DNA from: Elusimicrobiota bacterium
GTDB taxonomy: Bacteria > Elusimicrobiota > Elusimicrobia > UBA1565 > UBA9628
NCBI GenBank assembly: GCA_016182905.1
Contig: JACPFR010000041.1
Span: forward strand, 1-64,000
Reading direction: 5' to 3'
Length of the DNA: 64,000 nucleotides
Below are positions 34,490-53,222 of the stretch, in pieces. Position numbers and translations under genes: made by a program. Position 1 is the first letter of the stretch. Each line of letters opens with the position of its first letter. The notes beneath the pieces were generated by a model that was not told the origin of the DNA, did not search any database, and was given only the letters and a program-made list of their open reading frames with translations.

Positions 34490-35785
34490 ATGGCCGAATC
34501 CCTCGGACGCCTCATCACGGACCTCGGGGAGCGCTCCCTGTACGACTCGGTGGCCCAGTGCTCCCGCTGCGGCTACTGCGAGCAGGCCTGCCCCACCTAC
34601 GTCGCCACCGGCGACGAGTCCAGGTCTCCCCGCGGCCGCAACCAGATCGTGCGGCTGATGATCGAGGGGAAGCTCGACGATCCGAAGGCCGCGATGGAGG
34701 CATTGTCGACGTGTCTGACGTGCGGGGCCTGCACGACGGCCTGTTACGCGAAGGTTCCCGTCGTCGACATCGTCCTCGAGGGAAGGCGCATGCTCCGGGG
34801 CGAGACGCATTGGCTCGTGAAGGCGGCGTGCCGGATCATGGTGACGGGTCCCCGGCTCTTCGCCGTCCTGTTGAAGATCGGTTTTCTGTTCAAAAAGTCC
34901 GGCCTATCGGCGTTGGGGCGGCCGGCGCTGCGCGCCGCCGGACTGTCCGTCCTCGCCTCGATGGACGAGCACACGGCCGAATCCCCGTTCTGGAACCTCG
35001 ACGACCTGACCCACAAGCGCGAGGACCCGGAGTCTCCCGCCTACCGCTACTTCGCTCCCTGCGGCCCCCGCTATCTGTTCCCGCGCGTCGGCCAGGCGAC
35101 GATGTCCGCTCTGGACGCGCTGATGGGCCAAGGGGCCTACCTCGACAACCCGTGCTGCGGCCTGCTGGCGCACAACTACGGGGAGCTCGAGGACGCCCGC
35201 GCGCTCGCCAAAAAGAACATCGAGCACGCGGAGAAGCGGCAGGACGCGGCGCCGATCATCGGCGACTGCTCCTCGTGCGTGGCCTTCCTCAAGTCCTATC
35301 CCCAGCTCTTCCTGAGGCCGGAGGACGCGCCTTGGCGGACGCGCGCCGAGGCGTTCTCCAAGCGCGTGCGCGACGCGATCGAGGTCTACGGCGAATGCGC
35401 CGACAAGCTTCCCGCCGCCGTCGCGGAGGGCGTCGAGACCACGTACCACGATTCCTGCCGCGCGATCAATCCTCAGGGGATCAAGACCCAGCCTCGTCTC
35501 GCCGCCAAGAAGGCCGCGGGCGCTTCCTACTGCGAGATGGCCGGCGCCGACGCCTGCTGCGGCGGCGCCGGGGCGTTCGCTTTCGTCCATGAGGAACTCT
35601 CCGAGGAGCTTCTCAAGAAGAAGATCGGCAACGCCGCGGCCGTGCAGGCGGGGCTCGTCCTGACGAGCTCGACTTCCTGCCTCATCCAGCTTGCCCGGGG
35701 TTTGAGGAAATACTATCCTGACGCCCGGGTGCTCCATCTCTCCGAGTTCGTCGCGGGGGCCCTCGAGAAAAAACATGGGGCGTAG
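34490..35785 (+). CDS. glcF: GlcF-like iron-sulfur subunit of glycolate/D-lactate dehydrogenase
   Basis: 431 residues. Two [4Fe-4S] motifs lie near the N-terminus: QCSRCGYCEQACP, and TCLTCGACTTACY, where the last Pro is replaced by Tyr. The CCG domains follow with NPCCGLLAHN and DACCGGAGAF. It accepts electrons from the GlcD-GlcE fusion encoded 3 bp upstream and delivers them to the membrane quinone pool. The hydrophobic stretch LFAVLLKIGFLF near residue 125 may help membrane contact. Its end overlaps the next gene by 11 bp. Confidence 0.9.
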   Translation: MAESLGRLITDLGERSLYDSVAQCSRCGYCEQACPTYVATGDESRSPRGRNQIVRLMIEGKLDDPKAAMEALSTCLTCGACTTACYAKVPVVDIVLEGRRMLRGETHWLVKAACRIMVTGPRLFAVLLKIGFLFKKSGLSALGRPALRAAGLSVLASMDEHTAESPFWNLDDLTHKREDPESPAYRYFAPCGPRYLFPRVGQATMSALDALMGQGAYLDNPCCGLLAHNYGELEDARALAKKNIEHAEKRQDAAPIIGDCSSCVAFLKSYPQLFLRPEDAPWRTRAEAFSKRVRDAIEVYGECADKLPAAVAEGVETTYHDSCRAINPQGIKTQPRLAAKKAAGASYCEMAGADACCGGAGAFAFVHEELSEELLKKKIGNAAAVQAGLVLTSSTSCLIQLARGLRKYYPDARVLHLSEFVAGALEKKHGA

Positions 35786-41233: not shown

Positions 41234-43126
41234 ATGGCCGATTTCGTCCCGCAGCCGCTCGGACGGCTGGCCGCGCGCATGTTCCGCGAGCTCGAGCTCA
41301 AGGACGCGATCTTCGACCTTCCTCGCCGCTCCTTCTTCATGGGGGACCCGAAGAAGGACTTCTCCGTCCGCTTCCACGGCATGACCGCCTCCTCGCCGCT
41401 GGGGCCGGCCGCGGGGCCGCACACCCAGCTGGCCCAGAACATCGTGCTGGCCTGGCTCGGCGGCGCGCGGATCTTCGAGCTGAAGACCGTGCAGGTCATG
41501 GACCGCCTCAAGATCCCGCGGCCGTGCATCGACATGCGCAACGTGGGCTACAACGTCGAGTGGTCCCAGGAGCTGCGCGCCGAGGAGTCGCTCGACGAGT
41601 ACGTGAAGGCCTCGATGCTCATCGACCTCTTGAAGGCGAGCGGGAAGATCCCGCTGGCGCCCGGCTTCGACCGTTCGGTGTTCGACCTGAGCGTCGGCTA
41701 CGACCTGAAAGGGGTGAAGAGCGACAAGGTCCGGACCTTCATCGCCGGCATGAAGGACGCGGGCGCGGTCGTCGCGCGCCTGCGCGCGGAGCTGCCCGAG
41801 AGCCTGCGCCGGACCGGGTTCTCGACGAGGATCTCCGGCTCGGTCACGCTCAGCACCTTCCACGGCTGCCCGCCCGACGAGATCGAGGCCATCGCCGACT
41901 TCATGATGTCGGAGCTGGGGCTCGACTGCATCATCAAGCTCAACCCGACCTTGCTCGGCCCCAAGGACCTGCGCGCCTTGTTCAACGACGCGTTGGGCTA
42001 CGCCGACATCGCCGTTCCGGAAGAGGCCTTCGCCAAGGACGCGACCTGGGAGCAGGCCTGCGGCTTCGTGACGCGCCTGTCGGCGAATGCCAGGACGCTC
42101 GGCCGCGGCTTCGGGGTCAAGTTCAGCAACACCCTCGTCGTCGAGAACAAGGAGGGCTTCCTGCCCGCCGCGGAGAAGACGATGTACCTCTCGGGGGCGC
42201 CGCTGCACGTCCTGGCGATGACCTTGGTCGGCCGCTTCCGCGAGCGCTTCGGCGACTCGGTGCCGGTCTCGTTCTCGGCGGGCATCGACAAGACGAACTT
42301 CCCGGACGCCGTCTCCCTCGGCCTCGTGCCCGTGACGGTGTGCAGCGACCTGCTCGCCCCCGGCGGCTACGGGCGGCTCAAGGGCTACTCCGAGGAGCTG
42401 GCCCGGCGCATGGACGCCGCCGGCGCCGCGACGATCCCGCAGTTCATCGCCAAGACCCGAGGCGGCTCGGTCCTCGCCAATACCAAGGCCTACGTCGCCG
42501 AGGCGACGAACGACCCGCGCTACGCGAAGGCGAAGAACTCGGCTTTGCCCAAGAAGCTGGGCACCCACCTGGTCCTCTTCGACTGCGTGACGTGCGACAA
42601 GTGCGTCCCGGTGTGTCCCAACGACGCCAACTTCACCTACGTCCTGCCGCGCGGCGAGGTGCCCGTCGTCAAGCTCCGGCGCGAGGGCGGCTCCTGGACG
42701 AGCCGGACCGAGGGCTCCCTGCGCTTTGACAAGAAGCACCAGCTCGCCAACTTCGCCGACTTCTGCAACGAGTGCGGCAACTGCGACGTGTTCTGCCCCG
42801 AGGACGGGGGACCGTACATCGTCAAGCCGCGCTTTTTCGGTACACGTGGATTCTGGGCGCAAAGCAAGGAGCGCGACGGATTCTTCATCGAGAACGGCGC
42901 CGTGCTCGGACGCTTCTCGGGGCGGGAGTACGGCCTGACTTTCCGCGACGGCGAAGCCGAATACTCGGGGCCGGGGTTCCGGGTGACCTACCGCCCCGAG
43001 GACCCGGCGGGCACCGCGCGGGGCGCGGCCGAGGACGAGGTGGACCTCACCTACGCCCTGATCATGGACCTCCTGCGCAAGGCGCTCCTGGCGCCCGACG
43101 CCGTGAGCTACGTCAACGCCGGCTAG
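41234..43126 (+). CDS. ygfK: Compact YgfK-like oxidoreductase with two [4Fe-4S] sites
   Basis: 630 residues. The first 450 match the N-terminal TIM-barrel-like part of YgfK (the so-called selenate reductase subunit): SPLGPAAGPHTQLAQNIV, ELKTVQVMDRLKIPRPCID, TLSTFHGCPPDEIEAI and LNPTLLGPKDLR. The C-terminus has ferredoxin motifs CVTCDKCVPVCP and CNECGNCDVFCP. E. coli YgfK has about 1030 residues because a GltD-like FAD/NAD(P)H module lies between these parts; here that module is absent. It probably acts with the molybdenum hydroxylase cluster on the other strand. Reaction unknown. Confidence 0.8.
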   Translation: MADFVPQPLGRLAARMFRELELKDAIFDLPRRSFFMGDPKKDFSVRFHGMTASSPLGPAAGPHTQLAQNIVLAWLGGARIFELKTVQVMDRLKIPRPCIDMRNVGYNVEWSQELRAEESLDEYVKASMLIDLLKASGKIPLAPGFDRSVFDLSVGYDLKGVKSDKVRTFIAGMKDAGAVVARLRAELPESLRRTGFSTRISGSVTLSTFHGCPPDEIEAIADFMMSELGLDCIIKLNPTLLGPKDLRALFNDALGYADIAVPEEAFAKDATWEQACGFVTRLSANARTLGRGFGVKFSNTLVVENKEGFLPAAEKTMYLSGAPLHVLAMTLVGRFRERFGDSVPVSFSAGIDKTNFPDAVSLGLVPVTVCSDLLAPGGYGRLKGYSEELARRMDAAGAATIPQFIAKTRGGSVLANTKAYVAEATNDPRYAKAKNSALPKKLGTHLVLFDCVTCDKCVPVCPNDANFTYVLPRGEVPVVKLRREGGSWTSRTEGSLRFDKKHQLANFADFCNECGNCDVFCPEDGGPYIVKPRFFGTRGFWAQSKERDGFFIENGAVLGRFSGREYGLTFRDGEAEYSGPGFRVTYRPEDPAGTARGAAEDEVDLTYALIMDLLRKALLAPDAVSYVNAG

Positions 43127-43243: not shown

Positions 43244-43942
43244 CTAGCGCAGGCCGGCGGAGCTGCGGATGTCCCGTTCGTCGAGCAGGAAGATGACGAA
43301 GCGCTTGTTGGCCGCCTCGACCGCCGGGCTCTCCTTGAGCTCGTAGAGCTCGGGGAGGTTCTCGGCCTGTCCGATCTTGTACAGGGCCATCTGTGCCGCG
43401 TCGGTCGCCCAGGCGCCCATCGCCTCGGAGACGGCGGGGACCTTCAGGCCCGCGAGGCCCTCGATGACGGGCAGGTTCGACGGCTCGCCGCCGAGCTCGA
43501 CCCAGACGCGGCCGGCCGTGCCGCGGACCATGTAGGACCGCTCGGCGCTGGCGGGCATGTCGGCGTACATCAGCGCCGCGGCTTCCTTGGCGATGAGCGG
43601 GCCGTACACGCGGGGGTAGGCGGGGAGCGAGGGGGCGAGCCAGATCGTCGTCTTGCCGGAGCGGACCGTCACGCTGACGGCCTCGGTCTGGACGTCGGTG
43701 CCGAGCTTGACCTCGATGCCCTTGTCGTTGAGGTAAGCGACGACGCGGCCGCCGGCCTCGGGGCCGTCGTTCATCGCGACGAGGGCACGCTCGATCGCGG
43801 CGATGGACTTGGCGCGATCGACGGCCTGCGCGGCCTTCCTCGATTCGAGGTCCTGGAGGTGGTTCTCGAAATCGATCTCGGCGGCACGGTCCTGGGCGGC
43901 GGCGGGGACGGCGAGGATCAAAGCGAGGATCGCGTACTTCAA
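43244..43942 (-). CDS. Secreted protein of unknown function, TTG start
   Basis: 232 residues. AAGGAGG sits 7 nt upstream of TTG 43942, and from there a signal peptide (LKYAILALILAVPAAAQ) begins, so I choose TTG over longer frames. The mature part is mixed alpha/beta (AYLNDKGIEVKLGTDVQTEA, WLAPSLPAYPRVYGPLIAKE, YKIGQAENLPELYELKESPA). No catalytic motif or family recognised. Probably periplasmic. Confidence 0.6.
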   Translation of the reverse strand: MKYAILALILAVPAAAQDRAAEIDFENHLQDLESRKAAQAVDRAKSIAAIERALVAMNDGPEAGGRVVAYLNDKGIEVKLGTDVQTEAVSVTVRSGKTTIWLAPSLPAYPRVYGPLIAKEAAALMYADMPASAERSYMVRGTAGRVWVELGGEPSNLPVIEGLAGLKVPAVSEAMGAWATDAAQMALYKIGQAENLPELYELKESPAVEAANKRFVIFLLDERDIRSSAGLR

Positions 43943-44079
43943 GAGGGGCCTCCTTGCGGCGATGAGGCATTGTACCCTGTCCCCCGGGGCGCGCGCGCGG
44001 GCCTTGCGGCCCAGCCCGTTCCTGCCAAAGGTCCCAGGAAGGCCGGTTCGTTGCTCCAATGAACGAGGGGGGTGAGCCC

Positions 44080-44496
44080 ATGACCGGAAGAATCGTCGTG
44101 CTCATTCTGGCGGCGGCGCTCGCGGCGTGCCAGACGCCCCAGTCGCGCATCAAGAAGAACCAGGCCGCGTTCGACGCCTACCCGCCGGAGGTCCAGACGG
44201 CCATCCGGGAGGGCCGGGTGGAGGTCGGCTTCACGGGGGAGCAGGCCGTGATGGCCCTCGGCAAGCCCACCCGAGTCTACTCGCAGAAGACGGCCGCCTC
44301 GAGCCAGGAGGTGTGGGAATACGGCAGCGGCGGCGGCTCGAGCGTGGGGTTCGGCTTCGGCATGTCCAGCATGGGAGGCGGCAGCGGCTACGGCACCGGG
44401 ATCGGCGTCAACTCCGACGTCTCGGACCCGCGGGCGCGGACGCGCCTGATCCTGGAGAGCGGCAAGATCGTCACCATCGAGCGCCGCGAGAAGTGA
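44080..44496 (+). CDS. Small outer-membrane lipoprotein, unknown function
   Basis: 138 residues. The signal ends in LAAALAAC, a lipobox with the lipid-modified Cys near residue 17. The mature part includes PPEVQTAIREGRVEVGFTGEQ and VMALGKPTRVYSQ, resembling SmpA/OmlA-like small lipoproteins in which a G-x-P loop precedes a strand. A Gly/Ser-rich stretch (GSGGGSSVGFGFGMSSMGGG) and RLILESGKIVTIERRE follow. ATG 44080 has an AGGGGGGTGA ribosome site. Converges on the amidase gene. Confidence 0.65.
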   Translation: MTGRIVVLILAAALAACQTPQSRIKKNQAAFDAYPPEVQTAIREGRVEVGFTGEQAVMALGKPTRVYSQKTAASSQEVWEYGSGGGSSVGFGFGMSSMGGGSGYGTGIGVNSDVSDPRARTRLILESGKIVTIERREK

Positions 44497-44502
44497 CGAG
44501 CC

Positions 44503-45435
44503 TCAGTAGATCTTGGGCCGGACGTCGCGCTTGAGGTCCCAGCCCGACGGGTCGGGCTTCTTGAGCGACCCGAGGTCGAGGTCGGCGATCACGAGGTCCG
44601 GGCGCGGGGAGCGGTTGGAGACCTTTTCGCCGTCGGGGCCGGCGAAGTAGCTCGCGCCGAAGTAGGGCTGGTTCCACGGCTTCTCCTCGCCGCGGCGGTT
44701 GGAGCCGCCGATGAAGAGGCGGTGGCGGCATGCGTCGACGAGGAATTCCTGATTCCATAGACGCCGCGATTTGGCCCCGAAGGTGACGGCGGGGGAGAAC
44801 ACGAGCTCCGCGCCCGCCTCGGCCAAGGCCGCGACGACGCCCTCGAAATGGCGGTCGTAGCAGATGGCCACGCCGACCTTCCCGACCGAGGTCTTGAAGA
44901 CGGGAAAGTAAGGGTTCTTGCCGAGTATCTTCGGCGATCTCTTATTCTGCGGCCCTTCGCTGCGTCCGTAATAATACGTCTCCGCGAACTCGCCCTGCTC
45001 GTTGGCGCCGCAGGGGATGTGCGTCTTGCGGTACTTGCCGATGATCGTCCCGTCGGCCTCGATGACGACCGCGGTGTTGAAGCGCTTCTTCGACTCGGCG
45101 TCGAGCTCGTAGATCGGCGCCACGACGACGATGCCGTTGTCCCTCGCGGCCTCGGCGAAGGCGTTCACGCTGGGCCCCGTCGCCGCGTCCTCGGCCATGG
45201 CCAGCCACATCGGGTCCTTGGTCATGGCGAAGTACGGCCCGGTGCACAGCTCCCCGAGGCAGACGATCTTCCCCCCGGCCTTCGCGGCGACGCGGATCAG
45301 GCCGGCGTTGTGCTCCACGTTCGCGCCGCGGACCGCGTCGAGGCGGCGCTTGAGCCCCCGAAGGTCCTTCACGGACTCCGGCATGTCCGGGTACGCGTTG
45401 ACCGTCTGGATCATAGCCGCGCGGACGAGGCTCAT
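44503..45435 (-). CDS. Carbon-nitrogen hydrolase (nitrilase superfamily), carbamoyl-amidase-like
   Basis: 310 residues. The Glu-Lys-Cys triad is visible: GELCTGPYF (Glu), GKYRKTHIP (Lys) and VAICYDRHFEG (Cys). The YDRH context and GPDG near the C-terminus recall beta-ureidopropionase and N-carbamoyl amidases, which release CO2 and ammonia from ureido compounds. Last gene of the operon with M20 carbamoylase, SsnA-like deaminase and Se-XDH; its ATG overlaps the M20 stop. This placement suits a late step in heterocycle breakdown, but the substrate is inferred. Confidence 0.85.
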   Translation of the reverse strand: MSLVRAAMIQTVNAYPDMPESVKDLRGLKRRLDAVRGANVEHNAGLIRVAAKAGGKIVCLGELCTGPYFAMTKDPMWLAMAEDAATGPSVNAFAEAARDNGIVVVAPIYELDAESKKRFNTAVVIEADGTIIGKYRKTHIPCGANEQGEFAETYYYGRSEGPQNKRSPKILGKNPYFPVFKTSVGKVGVAICYDRHFEGVVAALAEAGAELVFSPAVTFGAKSRRLWNQEFLVDACRHRLFIGGSNRRGEEKPWNQPYFGASYFAGPDGEKVSNRSPRPDLVIADLDLGSLKKPDPSGWDLKRDVRPKIY

Positions 45436-46697
45436 CGCGTTTCCTCGGCCAAGGCGAGGGCCGCGCCCAGAAGGACGTTCACGCCGTTCGCGCACTGCTT
45501 CAGCGTCGAGAACTCCCGCGGGTTGTGGCTGATCCCGTCGTACTCGCCCGGGACGAAGACCATCGCCGTCTTGCACACCCGGCTCCACTCCTGGGCGTCG
45601 TGGCCGGCGCCGGAGAGGATGGGCTCGTGCGACAGCCCCAGACGGTCGGCCTGGGCGGCGATGAGGGACTGCACGGACGCGTCGAAGGGCACGTGCGGGG
45701 TCTTGGCCGTGCGGCGGCTGGTGATGGTCACGCCGTCCCGTTTGGCGACCTCGCGGCACAGGGCGGCGAAGTCCTTCTCCGCCTTCTTCATCAGCGCGTC
45801 GGAGGGGTTGCGCAGGTCCACGGAGACGATCGCGCGGCCGGGCACGACGTTGACCATGCCCGGGACGTGGCGCACCGCGCCCATCGCCGCGCGCATCTCG
45901 CGGCCGTAGCGGCCCGAGGCCGTCATCTCGCGCAGGGCGACGTTGAGCCGGGCGGCGGCCAGGCCCGCGTCGCGGCGGAAGCTCATCGGCGTGGTGCCCG
46001 CGTGGCAGGACTTGCCGATGATGGTCAGCTCCTGCCACGAGATCGCCTGCACGCCCATGACGACGCCGCAGTCGAGGCCTTTGTGGCGGAGGATCGGGCC
46101 TTGCTCGATGTGGCACTCGACGTAGGCGTGGGGCGCGAGCTTGCCGACCGGCTCGGTCCCGAGGAAGCCGATCTTCTCGAGCTCGCCCTTGACGGTCAGG
46201 CCGTCGCGGTCCTGGAGGGCGTAGGCCGCTTCGAGCGGCAGGCGGCGCGTGGCCACGGCGCTGCCCAGCATGTCGGTGCCGAAGCGGCAGCCCTCCTCGT
46301 CGGTGAAGAAGCCGACGATCAGCGGGCGGCGCGTGACGACCTTGGCGTCGTTGAGCGTGCGCACGACCTCGAGCGCGCCGAGCACGCCGAGGCAGCCGTC
46401 GAAGCGGCCGGCGGTGGGGACGGAGTCGATGTGCGAGCCGAGCATGACGGGGGCGAGATGATCCTCGAGGCCGCGGCGGCGGCCGTACACGTTGCCGATG
46501 CGGTCGATCGTCACGTGCAGACCGGCCTGCCGGAACCATTTCACGACGAGGCGACGGCCCGCGCCGTCGGCGGCGGTCAACGCGAGGCGGTTCACACCCA
46601 TGATTCCGGTGCGTTCGTCCTTGTAGGCGCCGATCTTCCCGAGCTCCGACAACGAGGAATAGAGCCGCTTGCCGTCGATGCTCAAAGCCTTCGCCAT
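45432..46697 (-). CDS. M20 Zn-dependent N-carbamoyl-amino-acid hydrolase-like amidase
   Basis: 421 residues. Metal ligands of the hydantoinase/carbamoylase branch of M20 are present: GSHIDSVPTAGRFDGCLG (His, Asp), FFTDEEGCRFG (Glu), ECHIEQGP (His) and a late DGISHNPREFS (His). GKSCHAGTTPMSFRRDA is the dimerisation and substrate region. Such enzymes open N-carbamoyl or allantoate-type compounds in the cytoplasm. ATG 46697 has GGAGAGG 2 nt upstream and lies inside the end of the SsnA-like gene (16-bp overlap), so expression is coupled. Confidence 0.85.
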   Translation of the reverse strand: MAKALSIDGKRLYSSLSELGKIGAYKDERTGIMGVNRLALTAADGAGRRLVVKWFRQAGLHVTIDRIGNVYGRRRGLEDHLAPVMLGSHIDSVPTAGRFDGCLGVLGALEVVRTLNDAKVVTRRPLIVGFFTDEEGCRFGTDMLGSAVATRRLPLEAAYALQDRDGLTVKGELEKIGFLGTEPVGKLAPHAYVECHIEQGPILRHKGLDCGVVMGVQAISWQELTIIGKSCHAGTTPMSFRRDAGLAAARLNVALREMTASGRYGREMRAAMGAVRHVPGMVNVVPGRAIVSVDLRNPSDALMKKAEKDFAALCREVAKRDGVTITSRRTAKTPHVPFDASVQSLIAAQADRLGLSHEPILSGAGHDAQEWSRVCKTAMVFVPGEYDGISHNPREFSTLKQCANGVNVLLGAALALAEETR

Positions 46698-47935
46698 AAC
46701 CTCTCCGTCTGCTTGAGGGTGAAATCCCGGACCTTGTCCTCTCTCACCGTCGTCATCCGTCCGCGCCGGACGATCACCTTCCCCTGGCTGACGACGCTGT
46801 CGACATGTTTGCTCGTGAGGCCGTACAGAAAATGTCCCGCGGCGTTTTGGGCCGTCACCGGCGTCGGAGGCCGGTAATCGAGGATGACGAGGTTGTTCTC
46901 CCCGTCGCCCGAGAATCTGTTCTCGGCGATGTAATCGTGAGCCCGCCGCAGGCGCCGGTACGCCGCGAGCGGGGACAGCCCGCCGCGGGGCTGGGCCGCG
47001 AGATACGCCGCGCGCGCCGAGGCGAGCATGTCGCCATGCATCCCATCGGTCCCCAACAGGAGGCGGTCGCCCAATCCCTTGGGGTCGAAGCCCCCGACGG
47101 CGTTGTTTTGGTTGCTCTCTTCGTTTTGAACGAACCACGAACGGCTGGAACGGAAGAGGGCTCGTTCCGCGGCGTTCAGGTGAAGACCATGCACGAGCAA
47201 GGTTTTCGGGGACTCGAGTATGCCCGTGCGCGCGAGGCGCTGAATGACGCGCATCCCGTGCCGGCGCTGGCAGTCCTGTTGATCGTCGACGGCTTCGGCG
47301 ACATGGATATGGATGCCGCTGTTGTGGCCGATGGCCATCGCGATGGCGCGGTACAAAAGATCGTCGCCGACGGTGAAGGACGCGTGAAGGCCCACGAGGC
47401 CTTGGCGCTTGCGCAGGTAGCGATCGGTTTCTTCGAGGCCCGCCTCGCGCTTGGCCTTCCCGTCGCGGTCGGAGAGCTCCACGCACAGCAGATGGGAAAG
47501 GCCGATCTCGTCGAGGGCGTCGGCGATGATGTCGAGGCTTCCTTTGACGGAGTTTGGAGACGAATGATGATCAATAATAAACGTCGCGCCGGCCTTCGCC
47601 GCCGCGATGCCGCCCGCCATGGCGCTGGCGCGGATCATGTCCTTGTCGAGCCGCTTGTCGAGGTTCCACCAGACGAGCTTGAGCATGTCGGGGAAATTCC
47701 TCGGGGCGCGCTTCGCCGGCGGCATCCCGCAGGCGAGGGCGGAGTAGAGATGATGATGCGCGACGACGAAGGACTTGGTGACCAGCCGCCCGGAGCAGTC
47801 GACGGCCCTCGCGCCGCGGGGGATCCGCGGGATGAAGCGGGACTTCCCTTGAGAGCCCGGCTCGACCGCCAGATGGCCGCGGCGGACCTTCAGCGTGCGC
47901 CAGTCGACGAACGACGCGTCCCGGAGGTAGAGCAT
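46682..47935 (-). CDS. ssnA: SsnA-like amidohydrolase/aminohydrolase
   Basis: 417 residues of the amidohydrolase fold. VVAHHHLYSALACGMP carries the HxH metal site, then FIIDHHSSPNSVKGSLDII, HIHVAEA and LLGTDGMHGDM with the metal Asp. The HHHLYS and DHHSSP segments are closer to SsnA than to other deaminases. SsnA proteins sit in selenium-dependent molybdenum hydroxylase loci and are thought to deaminate purine-type rings. It is flanked by Se-XDH (ATG 47935 overlaps its stop) and the M20 carbamoylase. Confidence 0.8.
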   Translation of the reverse strand: MLYLRDASFVDWRTLKVRRGHLAVEPGSQGKSRFIPRIPRGARAVDCSGRLVTKSFVVAHHHLYSALACGMPPAKRAPRNFPDMLKLVWWNLDKRLDKDMIRASAMAGGIAAAKAGATFIIDHHSSPNSVKGSLDIIADALDEIGLSHLLCVELSDRDGKAKREAGLEETDRYLRKRQGLVGLHASFTVGDDLLYRAIAMAIGHNSGIHIHVAEAVDDQQDCQRRHGMRVIQRLARTGILESPKTLLVHGLHLNAAERALFRSSRSWFVQNEESNQNNAVGGFDPKGLGDRLLLGTDGMHGDMLASARAAYLAAQPRGGLSPLAAYRRLRRAHDYIAENRFSGDGENNLVILDYRPPTPVTAQNAAGHFLYGLTSKHVDSVVSQGKVIVRRGRMTTVREDKVRDFTLKQTERLWRRL

Positions 47936-50487
47936 CAGTCCTTCATGGGCAAGGTGCGCCGGCGCTTGCCGTCGAACGCCCAGAGGGCGTTGGCCACGGC
48001 TCCGGCCGTCGGCACCAGGCCGATCTCGCCCACGCCCTTGGCGCCGTAAGGGCCGAGCGGGTCGGGGACCTCGACGGCGATGACGGTGAGCTTCGGGGTC
48101 TCCTTGGCGCGCAGCACGCCGCAGTCGCGCAGCTTCGTCGACTTCGGGCGGCCGTTCTCCATGACCAACTCCTCGCTGATCGCGTAGCCGAGGCCCATGT
48201 GGAGCGACCCCTCGATCTGGCCTTCGAACAAGGTCGGGTTCATGACCTTGCCCGCGTCATGGGCGGCGATGAGCTCTTCGACGCGGCCGTCCTCGTCGAC
48301 GACGGCGACCTGGGTCGCGTAGCTGTAGGAGTAATGGGTGACGATCGGCTTGCCGTGGGTGTCGTAGCCGGGCTTGGTGGTCCAGTCGCAGACCCACTTG
48401 CCGCGGTAGCGGCGTCCGGCCATCGCGGCGAGGCCGTCGCGCTTGAGGTCGCTCTTGAACGCCCTGCAGGCGTCGATGAGCGCGTTGCCGACGAGGCTCG
48501 TCGCGCGGGAGGCGGTGGTCATGCCCGCAGGGGCGCCGTCGCTCGTGCGCGCGCGCACGGAGAGCTTGTCCGGGGCCAGCCCCGTCTCGGAGCAGACGAC
48601 CTGCACCGCGATCGTATCCACGCCCTGGCCCATCTCGGTCCAGCCGTGGTGTATCTCGACGCGGCCGGCCGGGAGGACCACGAGCTCCACCTCGGAGAAA
48701 TCGGGCATGCCGTTGCCGATGCCGGTGTTCTTGATGCCGCAGCCGATTCCCGCGTGTTTCGCGGCCTGGAAGCGGTCCTTCACCGCCTCGAGCGTCGCGC
48801 GCACGCCGACGCCGCCGGTCAGAATCTGACCGGTCGAGGTGGTCAGGCCGTCGACCAGGGCGTTGTCCCAGCGGAACTGCCAGCGGTCGAATTTGCCTTT
48901 TTCGCAGAGCTCATCGACGGAACACTCCATCGCGAAGGTCGCTTGATTCGCGCCGAAGCCGCGCATCGCGCCGCAGGGGACGTTGTTGGTGATGACCGCC
49001 GTCGCCTCCACGTCGACATGGGGCACGCAGTAGCCGCCGGTGGAGTGTCCCGCGGCCCGCTCGAGGACCTTCATGCCCACGGACGCGTAGGCGCCGGAGT
49101 CGCCGTAGATGCGCGCATATAACGCTTTCAGCTTTCCGTCCTTCCCGCAGCCGAGTTTGTATTCCATCCGCAGCGGGTGACGCTTGGAGTGCATCAAAAT
49201 GGATTCTTCCCGGGTGATCTCGAGCTTGACGGGCTTGCCGAGGAGATGCGCCGCCAAGGCCGCCTGGCTTTGCGCGAGCATGTCTTCCTTCCCGCCGAAT
49301 CCGCCCCCGTTAGGCACCAGCACGACATCCACTTCCGTTTCTTCGACGTTGAGCATGGCCGCGAGCTGCTTGCGGTCCTCGTAAATCCCTTGGCTTTGGG
49401 TGTAGACGATGATCCGCCCGTCCTCGGGCAAGGCCAAGGCGGCCTCCGGCTCCATGTACGCGTGCTCGATCCACTGCGTCTGGTACACCGCCTCGTGAAC
49501 GAAGTCGCACTCGGCCAAGGCTTTTGTCGCGTCGCCCTTCTTGGCTTTCGAGACGCTCAATACGTTGCCTTTGGGCTGGAGTTTCGGGGCCCCCGGAGCG
49601 AGAGCCGAGGGCACGTCGAGGACAGGCGTGAGGACCTCGTACTCGACCTTCACGGCCTTCGCGGCGGCCTGGGCGTGGGCGCGGGTGTCGGCCACGACCA
49701 GGGCCAGCACGTCTCCCACGTAGCCGGTGATCTCTCCGGCGGCGACCATCACGGGCCAGTCCTGTATGATCGAACCCTGCAAACGGCGGCCCGGGATGTC
49801 GGCCGCGAGGAAGACCTTGGTCACGCCCGTCATGGCCGACGCGGCGGAGGTATCGATTTTGAGCACCTTCGCGCGGGGATGGTCGGAGAGGCGCACCGCC
49901 GCGTGGAGCATGCCGGGGACCGTCATGTCGGCCACGTACGGCCGGCGGCCCAGCACCGCGTCCTTGATGTCGTACTTGGGCAGGCGCGTGCCGACCGGGC
50001 CCGCTCCCTCGGGCGGCGCCGAGGGCTTGCCGGTGCGCAAGGTCTTCGCCGCGTCCGCGATCGAGGCGACGATCTTCTTGTAGCCGGTGCAGCGGCACAG
50101 ATGCTGGTTCAGGCCGCGCTCGATCTCGTCGTGCGTGGGCTCCGGAGTCTTCTTGACCAGGTTCCAGGCCCGCATCACGATGCCCGGGATGCAGAAGCCG
50201 CACTGCGCGCCGCCGTTGTGGGCGAAGGCGTCGGCGAAGGCGTCCTGCGCGGGCTTGCCCATGCCCTCGGTGGTGACGACCTCCTTGCCTTCGACCTGCT
50301 TCATCGCGGTCACGCAGGACAGCACGGCCTTGCCGCCGAGCTCGACGGTGCAGCAGCCGCAGGCGGCCTGGGGGGAGCAGCCGTCCTTGGCGGAGATGAC
50401 GCCTTCCTCGTCGCGCAGCCAGCGCAGCAGCGAGCCCTCGGGCGCTCCTTTATATTCCTTCTCGACGCCGTTGAGCTTGAACTTCAT
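47935..50487 (-). CDS. Selenium-dependent xanthine dehydrogenase-type molybdenum hydroxylase
   Basis: 850 residues. The N-terminal 2Fe-2S domain is SAKDGCSPQAACGCC. The second 2Fe-2S domain has QCGFCIPG and QHLCRCTGYKK. It is fused directly to the molybdopterin domains (GGGFGGKEDMLAQ, GAMRGFGANQATFA, YGAKGVGEIGLVP with the catalytic Glu). There is no FAD domain. This fused layout and the neighbours fit the Se-dependent XDH family, in which a labile non-Sec selenium ligand occupies Mo; that ligand cannot be read from DNA. It hydroxylates purine-like rings. Start ATG 50487 overlaps the PLP lyase stop. Confidence 0.85.
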   Translation of the reverse strand: MKFKLNGVEKEYKGAPEGSLLRWLRDEEGVISAKDGCSPQAACGCCTVELGGKAVLSCVTAMKQVEGKEVVTTEGMGKPAQDAFADAFAHNGGAQCGFCIPGIVMRAWNLVKKTPEPTHDEIERGLNQHLCRCTGYKKIVASIADAAKTLRTGKPSAPPEGAGPVGTRLPKYDIKDAVLGRRPYVADMTVPGMLHAAVRLSDHPRAKVLKIDTSAASAMTGVTKVFLAADIPGRRLQGSIIQDWPVMVAAGEITGYVGDVLALVVADTRAHAQAAAKAVKVEYEVLTPVLDVPSALAPGAPKLQPKGNVLSVSKAKKGDATKALAECDFVHEAVYQTQWIEHAYMEPEAALALPEDGRIIVYTQSQGIYEDRKQLAAMLNVEETEVDVVLVPNGGGFGGKEDMLAQSQAALAAHLLGKPVKLEITREESILMHSKRHPLRMEYKLGCGKDGKLKALYARIYGDSGAYASVGMKVLERAAGHSTGGYCVPHVDVEATAVITNNVPCGAMRGFGANQATFAMECSVDELCEKGKFDRWQFRWDNALVDGLTTSTGQILTGGVGVRATLEAVKDRFQAAKHAGIGCGIKNTGIGNGMPDFSEVELVVLPAGRVEIHHGWTEMGQGVDTIAVQVVCSETGLAPDKLSVRARTSDGAPAGMTTASRATSLVGNALIDACRAFKSDLKRDGLAAMAGRRYRGKWVCDWTTKPGYDTHGKPIVTHYSYSYATQVAVVDEDGRVEELIAAHDAGKVMNPTLFEGQIEGSLHMGLGYAISEELVMENGRPKSTKLRDCGVLRAKETPKLTVIAVEVPDPLGPYGAKGVGEIGLVPTAGAVANALWAFDGKRRRTLPMKD

Positions 50488-51929
50488 CAGTCGAGGCCGG
50501 TCCTCGCGTTGAACTCTCCGATGAGCTTGTCCCACTCCTTCGCGCTCGCGAACGTCTCGGCCCAGAACTCGGGGTCCCACAGGCGGCGCAGCTCGTCGGA
50601 GGTCCGTCCCTGCTGCTCGACCCAGGTGAAGTACTTGAGGTTGTGCAGGGCCTTGCGGTCGCGGTAGTTCAGCTCGCGCAGGTTGTCCGTGTTCGCCCCG
50701 CGCATGCGGCGGTCCATGTCCATCGCCGCCTGCAACGGCGTGTACTTGCCATGGGCCTCCTCGAGCTCGACGAGTCGGGAGCCGTACAGGTCCACCGAGT
50801 CGGTGAAGATGGTGAACACGACGTCGTCCTTGCCGAGCTCGTAGTACTTGGCGAGCTTGACGGCGGAGAGCATGTTGGAGATGCCGGAGATGCCGAGCAG
50901 GCCCAGGTTCTCCACGGCGGCTTTGTCCACGCCCTCGGTGAGCAGGTGCTTGCGGCCCGCGGGGTCGTTGAACAGGCGCAGCAGGCGCATGCAGTCCTCG
51001 TCGTCGATGGCGACGACCATGTCGGTGTTGCGCACGTTGTGCACCCAGGGGATGTGCTTGTCGCCGATGCCCTCGATGCGGTGCTCGCCGAAGCCGTTCA
51101 TGAACAAGGTCGGGCACTGCTGGGCCTCGGAGGCGGCCACGCGCACCGCCGGGAACTTCGTGCGCAGGTAGTCGCCGGCGGCGATGGTGCCCGCCGAGCC
51201 GGTGGCGGAGACGTAGCCCGCCAGGCGGCCGTTCTTGCCCTTCACCTTCTCGAAGACTTCCTCGATCGCCCCGCCGGTCACGTGGTAGTGCCAGGTCGGG
51301 TTGCCGAACTCCTCGAACTGGTTGAAGATCACGCAGTCCTTGCGCGTCTTCTTGATCTCCCAGCATTTATCGTAAATCTCTTTGACGTTGGATTCCGTTC
51401 CGGGCGTCGCGATGACCTCGGCCCCGATGGACTTGAGCCACGCGAAGCGCTCCTTGCTCATGCCCTCGGGCAGGATCGCCACGGCGGTGCAGCCGAGCAA
51501 AGCGCTGTCGAACGCCCCGCCGCGGCAGTAGTTGCCCGTCGAAGGCCACACCGCTTTCTGGGACGTGGGATCGAACTCTCCCGTCACGAGGCGGGGGGCG
51601 AGGCAGGAGAAGGCCGCGCCGACCTTATGGGCGCCGGTGGGGAAGTGCTTCCCGACGAGGCCGATGACGCGGGCGTCGATGCCGGTGATCGACTTCGGTA
51701 TCTCGAGATAGTTCACGCCGCCGAAGAGGCCGGTCTTGGCGTCGTTCTTCCAGGTGATGCGGAACAGGTTGGCCGGGTCGAGGTCGTTCATGCCGACCTT
51801 CTTGAGGCGGGCGTGGGCCGAGGCGGGAGCCTTGGAGGGATCCTTCATCTGCGCGAAGGTGGGGATGACGACGCCGCGCTCCTTGCACAGCTTGGCCGTC
51901 TTCTTCAGCACCGCTTCGTTGATCTTCAT
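50487..51929 (-). CDS. Fold-type II PLP enzyme, TrpB/cysteine-synthase-like lyase
   Basis: 480 residues. GKHFPTGAHKVGAAFSCL contains the likely PLP lysine in a TrpB-like context (TGAHK). VWPSTGNYCRGGAFDSALLG is the substrate/phosphate region, and SATGSAGTIAAGDYL is a Gly-rich PLP-phosphate loop. It should catalyse beta-elimination or replacement on an amino acid. In the E. coli locus the PLP enzyme is diaminopropionate ammonia-lyase (YgeX); this protein differs clearly in sequence, so it may replace that step or do another. GGAG lies 5 nt before ATG 51929. Confidence 0.7.
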   Translation of the reverse strand: MKINEAVLKKTAKLCKERGVVIPTFAQMKDPSKAPASAHARLKKVGMNDLDPANLFRITWKNDAKTGLFGGVNYLEIPKSITGIDARVIGLVGKHFPTGAHKVGAAFSCLAPRLVTGEFDPTSQKAVWPSTGNYCRGGAFDSALLGCTAVAILPEGMSKERFAWLKSIGAEVIATPGTESNVKEIYDKCWEIKKTRKDCVIFNQFEEFGNPTWHYHVTGGAIEEVFEKVKGKNGRLAGYVSATGSAGTIAAGDYLRTKFPAVRVAASEAQQCPTLFMNGFGEHRIEGIGDKHIPWVHNVRNTDMVVAIDDEDCMRLLRLFNDPAGRKHLLTEGVDKAAVENLGLLGISGISNMLSAVKLAKYYELGKDDVVFTIFTDSVDLYGSRLVELEEAHGKYTPLQAAMDMDRRMRGANTDNLRELNYRDRKALHNLKYFTWVEQQGRTSDELRRLWDPEFWAETFASAKEWDKLIGEFNARTGLD

Positions 51930-51983: not shown

Positions 51984-53222
51984 TTAAGAAATCTTCTCGC
52001 GAGCGGCCACGCGCCGGACCGAGGCCATGCTCGTCCCCACCTCGTGTGGCCGTCCCGCCGCCTTCATCGCGCTGCCGACGTCCTTCAAGCCGCTGCCCGT
52101 GATCACGATCACCGCCGTGTCGTTCTCGCGGACCTTTCCCGACGCCGCGCACTTGGCCAGGCCGGCGTAGGCGGCCGCTCCGGCCGGCTCGGCGAAAACG
52201 CCGGCGCCCCGGGCGACCGCCGGTATCGCGGCGAGTATCTCGCGGTCGGTCACGGTCACGGCGAAGCCGTCGGACTGCTTGAGGGCATGGACGGCGGCCG
52301 CGCCGTCGCGGGGGATGCTCACCGAGATGCTGTCAGCAACAGTCCTGCCACTCGCCGCGCGGATGGGGCCGCCGGATCTCCAGGCGTCCGCGACGGCCGC
52401 GCTGCCCTCGGCCTGCACGGCGACCATCCGGGGCAGACTGTCGATGAGGCCGAGCGCGTGGAATTCGGCGAAGCCTTTCCAGAGGCCGCTGATGATGTTC
52501 CCGTCTCCGACGGAGACGAACACGAGATCGGGGACCTTCCAATCCAGCTGCTCGCAGATCTCGAAGGCGCAGGTCTTCTTGCCCTCGCGGGTGAAGGGGT
52601 TGTAGCCGGTGTTGCGGTTGTACCAGCCGAACTCGTCGCAGGCCTGGCGGCACAGGTCGAAGGCCTGGTCGTAGGTGCCGTCCACGCTGAGGACGGTCGC
52701 CCCGAAGACGAGGAGCTGGGCCAGCTTGGCGGGGGGCGCGGTCCGGGGCACGAAGATGACGGGCTTGGTCTCGCGCTGGGCCATCATGCAGGCCAAGGAC
52801 GCGGCGGCGTTCCCGGTCGAGGCGCCGGCGACGGTCTTCTCTCCGGTCTCGAAGGCGCGCGCCGCGACGACGGCGCTCGCCCGGTCTTTGAAGGAGGCCG
52901 ACGGGTTGCGGCCGTCGTCCTTCAGGTACAGGTGCTTAAGCCCGAGTCCGGCGCCGAGCTTTCGGGCGTGGTAGAGAGGCGTCCAGCCGGCGGACACGGG
53001 CGGAATTCCCGTTCTGCCGTCGAGCGGCAGGATGTCGAGGTAGCGCCAGAGGCTGCGCTCCGGATCGGCCTTCAGCGACTTCCGGCCTATCCGTTTTCGA
53101 AGGGCCTTGTGATCATAGACGACCGAGAGGTTCCCGCCGCAGCGCGGGCAGACGTATTTCGCGTCGGACAGGCCGCACTGCGACCCGCACGCGACGCAGC
53201 GGAATCCCTCGATCTTCTTCAT
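51984..53222 (-). CDS. thrC: Threonine synthase-like PLP enzyme with N-terminal zinc ribbon
   Basis: 412 residues. FRCVACGSQCGL and KYVCPRCGG form an N-terminal zinc-ribbon-like part. NPSASFKDRASAV holds the PLP lysine, ASTGNAAASLACM the substrate loop, and VSVGDGNIISGLWKGF the phosphate loop; all are typical of threonine synthase (O-phosphohomoserine to threonine). Because it sits at the head of the Se-hydroxylase operon and threonine synthase relatives have varied substrates, a catabolic role (for example beta-elimination) is possible. GAGAGG lies just before ATG 53222. Confidence 0.75.
   Translation of the reverse strand: MKKIEGFRCVACGSQCGLSDAKYVCPRCGGNLSVVYDHKALRKRIGRKSLKADPERSLWRYLDILPLDGRTGIPPVSAGWTPLYHARKLGAGLGLKHLYLKDDGRNPSASFKDRASAVVAARAFETGEKTVAGASTGNAAASLACMMAQRETKPVIFVPRTAPPAKLAQLLVFGATVLSVDGTYDQAFDLCRQACDEFGWYNRNTGYNPFTREGKKTCAFEICEQLDWKVPDLVFVSVGDGNIISGLWKGFAEFHALGLIDSLPRMVAVQAEGSAAVADAWRSGGPIRAASGRTVADSISVSIPRDGAAAVHALKQSDGFAVTVTDREILAAIPAVARGAGVFAEPAGAAAYAGLAKCAASGKVRENDTAVIVITGSGLKDVGSAMKAAGRPHEVGTSMASVRRVAAREKIS

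Follow-up and report, generated by a model that had tools for sequence, protein, structure and literature searches.

How does a YgfK protein operate when the module that handles NAD(P)H is missing? This question is raised by a gene within the 64,000-nucleotide stretch of DNA analyzed here (hereafter the window), whose 630-residue product resembles both ends of Escherichia coli YgfK (b2878, TIGR03315) but has no counterpart of the GltD-like FAD/NAD(P)H module that separates them in that enzyme. In 2025, E. coli YgfK was shown to be a flavin-dependent enzyme that uses NAD(P)H to reduce and dearomatize 2,8-dioxopurine (yanthine) before cleavage by SsnA, as revealed by an assay coupled to SsnA, during anaerobic urate degradation (PMC12507026). 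The preliminary description of this locus, which regarded the YgfK reaction as still unknown, is outdated in this respect. The name “putative selenate reductase subunit YgfK” persists in databases, and one metagenome study employed YgfK to mark selenium cycling (PMC8443593). Short ygfK-type genes probably mark purine use, not selenium cycling.

Domain layout and predicted fold

The short ygfK frame (Table 1) is open from its ATG start codon and exhibits strong codon bias, with a GC3 of 0.96. A profile search with TIGR03315 yielded 411.7 bits in two stretches, about half of the curated full-length cut-off of 835.3 bits, wherein the best stretch pairs profile positions 6–453 of 1012 with residues 6–463. 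By blastp, residues 1–389 align with residues 1–405 of E. coli YgfK at 39.8% identity, and a C-terminal stretch (residues 453–579) aligns with residues 904–1004 at 28%. The gap between these two alignments covers the GltD-like module and two further Cys motifs at its N-terminus. Thus, the module is absent as the preliminary description had it, although the missing block is nearer 450 residues than the 400 or so given there.

Table 1. Features of the short ygfK gene and of the purine cluster next to it, in window coordinates.
Feature	Coordinates	Strand	Basis or remark
Short YgfK, 630 aa, putative FMN/2x[4Fe-4S] 2,8-dioxopurine (yanthine) reductase without GltD module	41234..43126	+	Profile, blastp, motif and model evidence
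FMN-type DHODH/DPD barrel region, residues ~1–442	41234..42560	+	Cofactor identity inferred from fold and motif register
First [4Fe-4S] motif, C451-x2-C-x2-C-x3-C461	42584..42616	+	Motif, alignment
Second [4Fe-4S] motif, C511-x2-C-x2-C-x3-C521	42764..42796	+	Motif, alignment
Carbamoylase/nitrilase-superfamily amidase	44503..45435	-	Best NCBIfam model N-carbamoylputrescine amidase, below cut-off
M20-family hydantoinase/carbamoylase-type amidohydrolase	45432..46697	-	TIGR01879, 352.8 bits (cut-off 204)
SsnA-like aminohydrolase	46682..47935	-	Best models SsnA, below cut-offs
Xanthine dehydrogenase (XDH), [2Fe-2S] and Mo domains fused, no FAD domain	47935..50487	-	TIGR03311 selenium-dependent xanthine dehydrogenase, 877.8 bits (cut-off 830.45)
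Diaminopropionate ammonia-lyase-like PLP enzyme, YgeX position	50487..51929	-	Only weak local similarity to E. coli YgeX
Threonine-synthase-like PLP enzyme	51984..53222	-	Recurrent in related clusters

Both C-terminal [4Fe-4S] motifs are retained, as had been noted, and their eight cysteines (C451, C454, C457 and C461; C511, C514, C517 and C521) are unchanged in all 46 aligned sequences. With two such motifs and no FAD/NADPH domain in one ORF, the protein has the layout of ferredoxin-dependent enzymes such as PydAc. The earlier view that it might represent a “minimal catalytic core” holds only in part, because an additional C-terminal part (residues ~540–630) remains beyond the barrel and the Fe-S motifs, and the FAD-less enzymes UacX and PydAc, which carry out this kind of step, were already known. 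The 64-kb window contains no GltD-like sequence, in agreement with the initial observation that no flavin module lies nearby, and the genome search placed none of the Pyr_redox_2 matches listed on the window’s contig. PF01180 (DHO_dh) is likewise missing from the Pfam matches of the window protein at E values up to 1. Judged by its sequence, the protein belongs to a distinct short subfamily, in which the barrel matches TIGR03315 but the score falls short of the full-length cut-off, and it is thus not a TIGR03315 equivalog.

An AlphaFold2 model computed from 46 sequences (mean pLDDT 83.1, pTM 0.86, with low values near the cluster loops) has pig dihydropyrimidine dehydrogenase (DPD) as its top Foldseek match, and VIA-align superimposes it on DHODH with a Z score of 24.5 and an rmsd of 2.8 over 291 aligned residues. 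Based on this predicted fold, the N-terminal part, previously described as barrel-like, is a DHODH/DPD-type barrel. Sequence and profile comparisons of the barrel gave weak results. Specifically, phmmer against PDB sequences returned nothing useful for the barrel, a profile search returned marginal DHODH matches only (best E 0.01), and hhalign gave no confident match to the genome’s PreA (probability 0.3) and a weak one to its own DHODH-like protein (probability 4.8). The motif register in this last alignment is sensible, pairing VKLNPTLLG with VKLSPDLAG, SNTLVV with SNTTIS, and LSGAPL with LSGRPL of the DHODH-like protein. Because these comparisons are weak, it is on the fold and the motifs that we base the prediction that the barrel likely holds FMN.

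The conserved barrel residues are K235-N237-P238, H210-G211-C212-P213, K296, N299-T300 and G350. The catalytic cysteine of DPD is C671, and C671 mutants occur among the titles of the Foldseek matches. By analogy, the conserved C212 is likely to serve as proton donor in short YgfK. In a comparison of 14 long and 95 short rows, 70 barrel positions are at least 90% conserved in both long and short YgfK, and 7 are group-specific.

Distribution of short YgfK among bacterial phyla

Scanning one genome per species yielded 584 candidate stretches with 560 relatives among them, and the best 80 were retained. The record titles of the relatives name Elusimicrobia, Planctomycetota, Myxococcota, SAR324, Acidobacteria, Gemmatimonadetes, Proteobacteria and Eisenbacteria. 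In a tree of the barrel, built from 94 of 110 deduplicated rows after near-copies were thinned out, 79 short rows fall on one side of a branch that has SH-aLRT support of 100 and a length of 1.03 changes per column. One “short” row, L183, groups with the long rows; its ORF runs off a contig end. The overall counts of 114 short and 14 long proteins include duplicates between loci L009–L088 and L089–L118. One of 340 genomes from the window’s phylum passes the full-length TIGR03315 cut-off, as does 1 of the 50 genomes that carry short YgfK. These sequence data indicate that short YgfK is an old subfamily present in at least eight, mostly environmental, phyla.

Given that most of the known enzyme’s middle is absent, one might suspect that the window genome merely carries a broken or recently shortened YgfK. 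The frame is open, with a GC3 of 0.96, and the cysteines are invariant in 46 of 46 sequences; the protein also belongs to one old clade that spans at least eight phyla. These features make such a defect extremely improbable, and a recent deletion or pseudogene is ruled out by the open frame, the cysteines and the tree.

A literature search confined to main texts, most of them outside subscription journals, found no description of short YgfK. The report on the urate pathway names YgfK, UacX and an F420-type enzyme as variants, and the parts of it covered here make no mention of a short YgfK (PMC12507026). At one locus from a Thermoanaerobaculia MAG (L069:7040-12848), an ssnA-like gene, a full-length YgfK (1194 aa), a short YgfK (686 aa) and ygeW stand in a row. 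Either the two forms may differ in their job, or one operon may keep two electron routes.

Genes surrounding short ygfK

Neighboring genes of the window operon (44503–51929, minus strand) overlap or touch by a few bases, and the threonine-synthase-like gene lies 54 bases further. The gene finder merged some frames in this GC-rich DNA; operon boundaries were hand-checked, and the start of the M20-family gene at 46697 was taken from the upstream sequence. Short ygfK is arranged tail to tail with the operon on the opposite strand, 1.4 kb apart, with two unrelated small genes between. The SsnA of the window matches that of E. coli at 32%. No match to E. coli ygeY, ygeW or hyuA was found in the window, which by the HyuA search lacks the hydantoinase step, and a HyuA homologue (43%) resides on another contig of the genome (C17).

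Several other features of the window were noted. The two small genes (43244–44496) have tblastn matches in the closest relatives only, and look like a lineage-specific insertion. The threonine-synthase-like gene recurs beside the diaminopropionate lyase in related clusters. Positions 34490–35785, some 5.4 kb upstream of short ygfK, encode an Fe-S protein with two C..C..C...C motifs that is similar to GlcF and to the C-terminal part of LdhH.

Among the relatives, the genome’s best SsnA-model match lies within 25 kb of short ygfK on the same contig in 31 of 50 genomes, compared to 0.57 expected by chance, and within 10 kb in 25 of those 31. At least one of seven core genes is present in 59 of 80 loci and at least two are present in 52, with a core gene located no more than 600 bp from short ygfK in 41. 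None of 20 control stretches carries any core gene; these came from contig 1 in each of 20 genomes among the 50, and some were very short. The window operon and these 59 loci place short YgfK in a reductive uricolytic gene neighborhood. This linkage to purine genes is not universal, as core genes are missing from 21 of the 80 loci, among them 12 of the 56 that are 12 kb or longer.

The arrangement seen in the window has parallels. In 12 of the 80 relatives, the core gene closest to short ygfK is a homologue of the carbamoylase in tail-to-tail orientation, and the ends of these two genes overlap in L011, L012, L030 and L040. Same-strand contacts also occur, for example in the order ssnA-ygfK-xdh, and ssnA sits directly upstream of short ygfK on the same strand in five relatives (three titled SAR324). 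Clustering of the neighbors recovered the purine genes, with no conserved electron carrier among the clusters listed.

Proposed reaction and electron source

We consider it fairly probable that short YgfK is a yanthine-reductase core, equipped with FMN and two [4Fe-4S] clusters and fed by a ferredoxin-type carrier, that operates in a reductive urate-degrading cluster. In this scheme, the FAD-less xanthine dehydrogenase homologue of the cluster would make yanthine, which short YgfK would reduce and dearomatize at FMN in the barrel, with C212 as the likely proton donor. SsnA would then hydrolyze the product, which would drive the reductase step. The two C-terminal [4Fe-4S] clusters would be the entry point for electrons, which a reduced ferredoxin-type carrier would supply in place of NAD(P)H.

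This proposal has precedents among known enzymes. E. coli YgfK, whose barrel, C-terminal [4Fe-4S] pair and ssnA/xdh neighborhood are of the same kind, differs by its NAD(P)H module. The barrel fold is shared, judging from the model match, with mammalian DPD and bacterial PreA/PreT. In DPD and PreA the Fe-S part is C-terminal, as it is in short YgfK; in contrast, DPD carries an FAD/NADPH module, and PreA is supplied with one by its partner PreT. In Clostridioides difficile, YgfK is replaced by UacX, which acts at the same pathway step, carries an FMN site, has no FAD domain and received reduced methyl viologen in its assay; the XDH of its cluster also lacks an FAD subunit, and the authors suggest ferredoxin as the donor for both (PMC12507026). 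However, UacX, known here by description, belongs to the PF01180 (DHO_dh) family, whereas the window protein groups with YgfK. PydAc, the ferredoxin-dependent dihydropyrimidine dehydrogenase of Clostridium chromiireducens, has an FMN domain together with two ferredoxin domains encoded by a single ORF, lacks the FAD/NADPH domains and uses reduced ferredoxin or viologen (PMC7332683). Unlike the predicted substrate of short YgfK, that of PydAc is uracil. The best reading is that short YgfK is an ancient electron-input variant of YgfK that converges on the layout of clostridial UacX and PydAc.

A separate GltD partner adjoins short ygfK in 0 of 80 loci, and the sole GltD match, at L069, is the second, full-length YgfK. 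The absence of both the module and a linked GltD gene implies that electrons come from another protein, most likely a ferredoxin, consistent with the original proposal of a ferredoxin or separate flavoprotein as donor. No linked ferredoxin recurs in the 80 loci: a scan for ORFs of at least 40 aa with a C..C..C...C motif, outside ygfK, found one in only 7. The window’s genome has three POR-domain matches, and a source of reduced ferredoxin is therefore plausible.

The XDH enzymes show a related pattern. Of 22 short loci, 1 encodes an XDH FAD subunit close to XDH, against 5 of 7 long ones (L069, L234, L235 and L236 left out). The Fisher p of 0.001 is not corrected for descent and overstates this contrast, which depends largely on a single long/short split of the tree. 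The window’s genome has 0 matches to PF00941. We infer, as the simplest reading, that one ferredoxin-type donor serves both short YgfK and XDH. An exception to the pairing of long YgfK with the FAD subunit is a Collinsella locus (L200:11012-14281), wherein genes for a 4Fe-4S binding protein and a selenium-dependent XDH come after that for a long YgfK, and no FAD subunit was found in the vicinity.

Some findings count against the ferredoxin-fed yanthine reductase that we propose. These include the lack of a linked ferredoxin, the 21 loci with no core gene, and the tandem at L069, given that the two forms may not be interchangeable. Furthermore, the window enzymes are distant from those of E. 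coli, and ygfK is off-strand and two genes away from the operon.

One alternative is that the reaction is the same, but that NAD(P)H electrons arrive via a separate GltD-type flavoprotein encoded elsewhere, here PreT. The window genome does encode a PreT-like GltD-type protein next to PreA, in two pieces at the ends of contigs C51 and C17; the genome’s one GltD-type match (E. coli module as query, E up to 1e-10) belongs to it, and the HyuA homologue on C17 is ~4 kb from PreT-PreA. This pair is itself a precedent for a split enzyme, and many of the 50 genomes have TIGR03315 matches in the GltD part. We nevertheless regard this route as unlikely, since PreT is already paired with PreA. In addition, 79 of 80 loci have no GltD-type gene linked to short ygfK, and that of L069 belongs to the full-length protein. 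It is quite unlikely that short YgfK is a paralogue that acts on another purine-derived or hydantoin-type substrate of the pathway, not yanthine. Such a role could account for the L069 tandem, the long branch between the short and long clades, and the differences between the downstream enzymes of short clusters and those of E. coli. However, only 1 of 50 short-YgfK genomes has a full-length match that could perform the yanthine step, no other linked reductase candidate was seen elsewhere, and 70 conserved barrel positions are shared, against 7 that are group-specific.

If short YgfK is a ferredoxin-fed yanthine reductase, then a pathway just worked out in gut bacteria extends, with another source of electrons, to lineages of soil, groundwater and marine origin, and the question of how anaerobic urate reduction is fed with electrons outside the gut becomes testable. 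We also entertain a rather doubtful extension, in which at least eight mostly environmental phyla would carry out both reductive steps of urate degradation without an NAD(P)H module. One low-potential carrier would be common to FAD-less XDH and short YgfK, or electrons would pass directly from one enzyme to the other, and the two NAD(P)H modules would have been gained or lost together. If true, the cost of reducing urate and yanthine could be covered by oxidizing hypoxanthine or xanthine to urate, in a redox-closed purine loop.

Two additional observations concern other genes of the window’s genome. The C51 and C17 ends that bear the split dihydropyrimidine dehydrogenase PreT-PreA (L237, L203) share sequence, and the PreA frame appears shifted near residue 275. 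On contig C4 (164888-168038; L243, L204), a DHO_dh-family gene lies close to a gene for a POR-domain protein, an arrangement that resembles the “X2” described in the part of the source consulted (PMC4016543).
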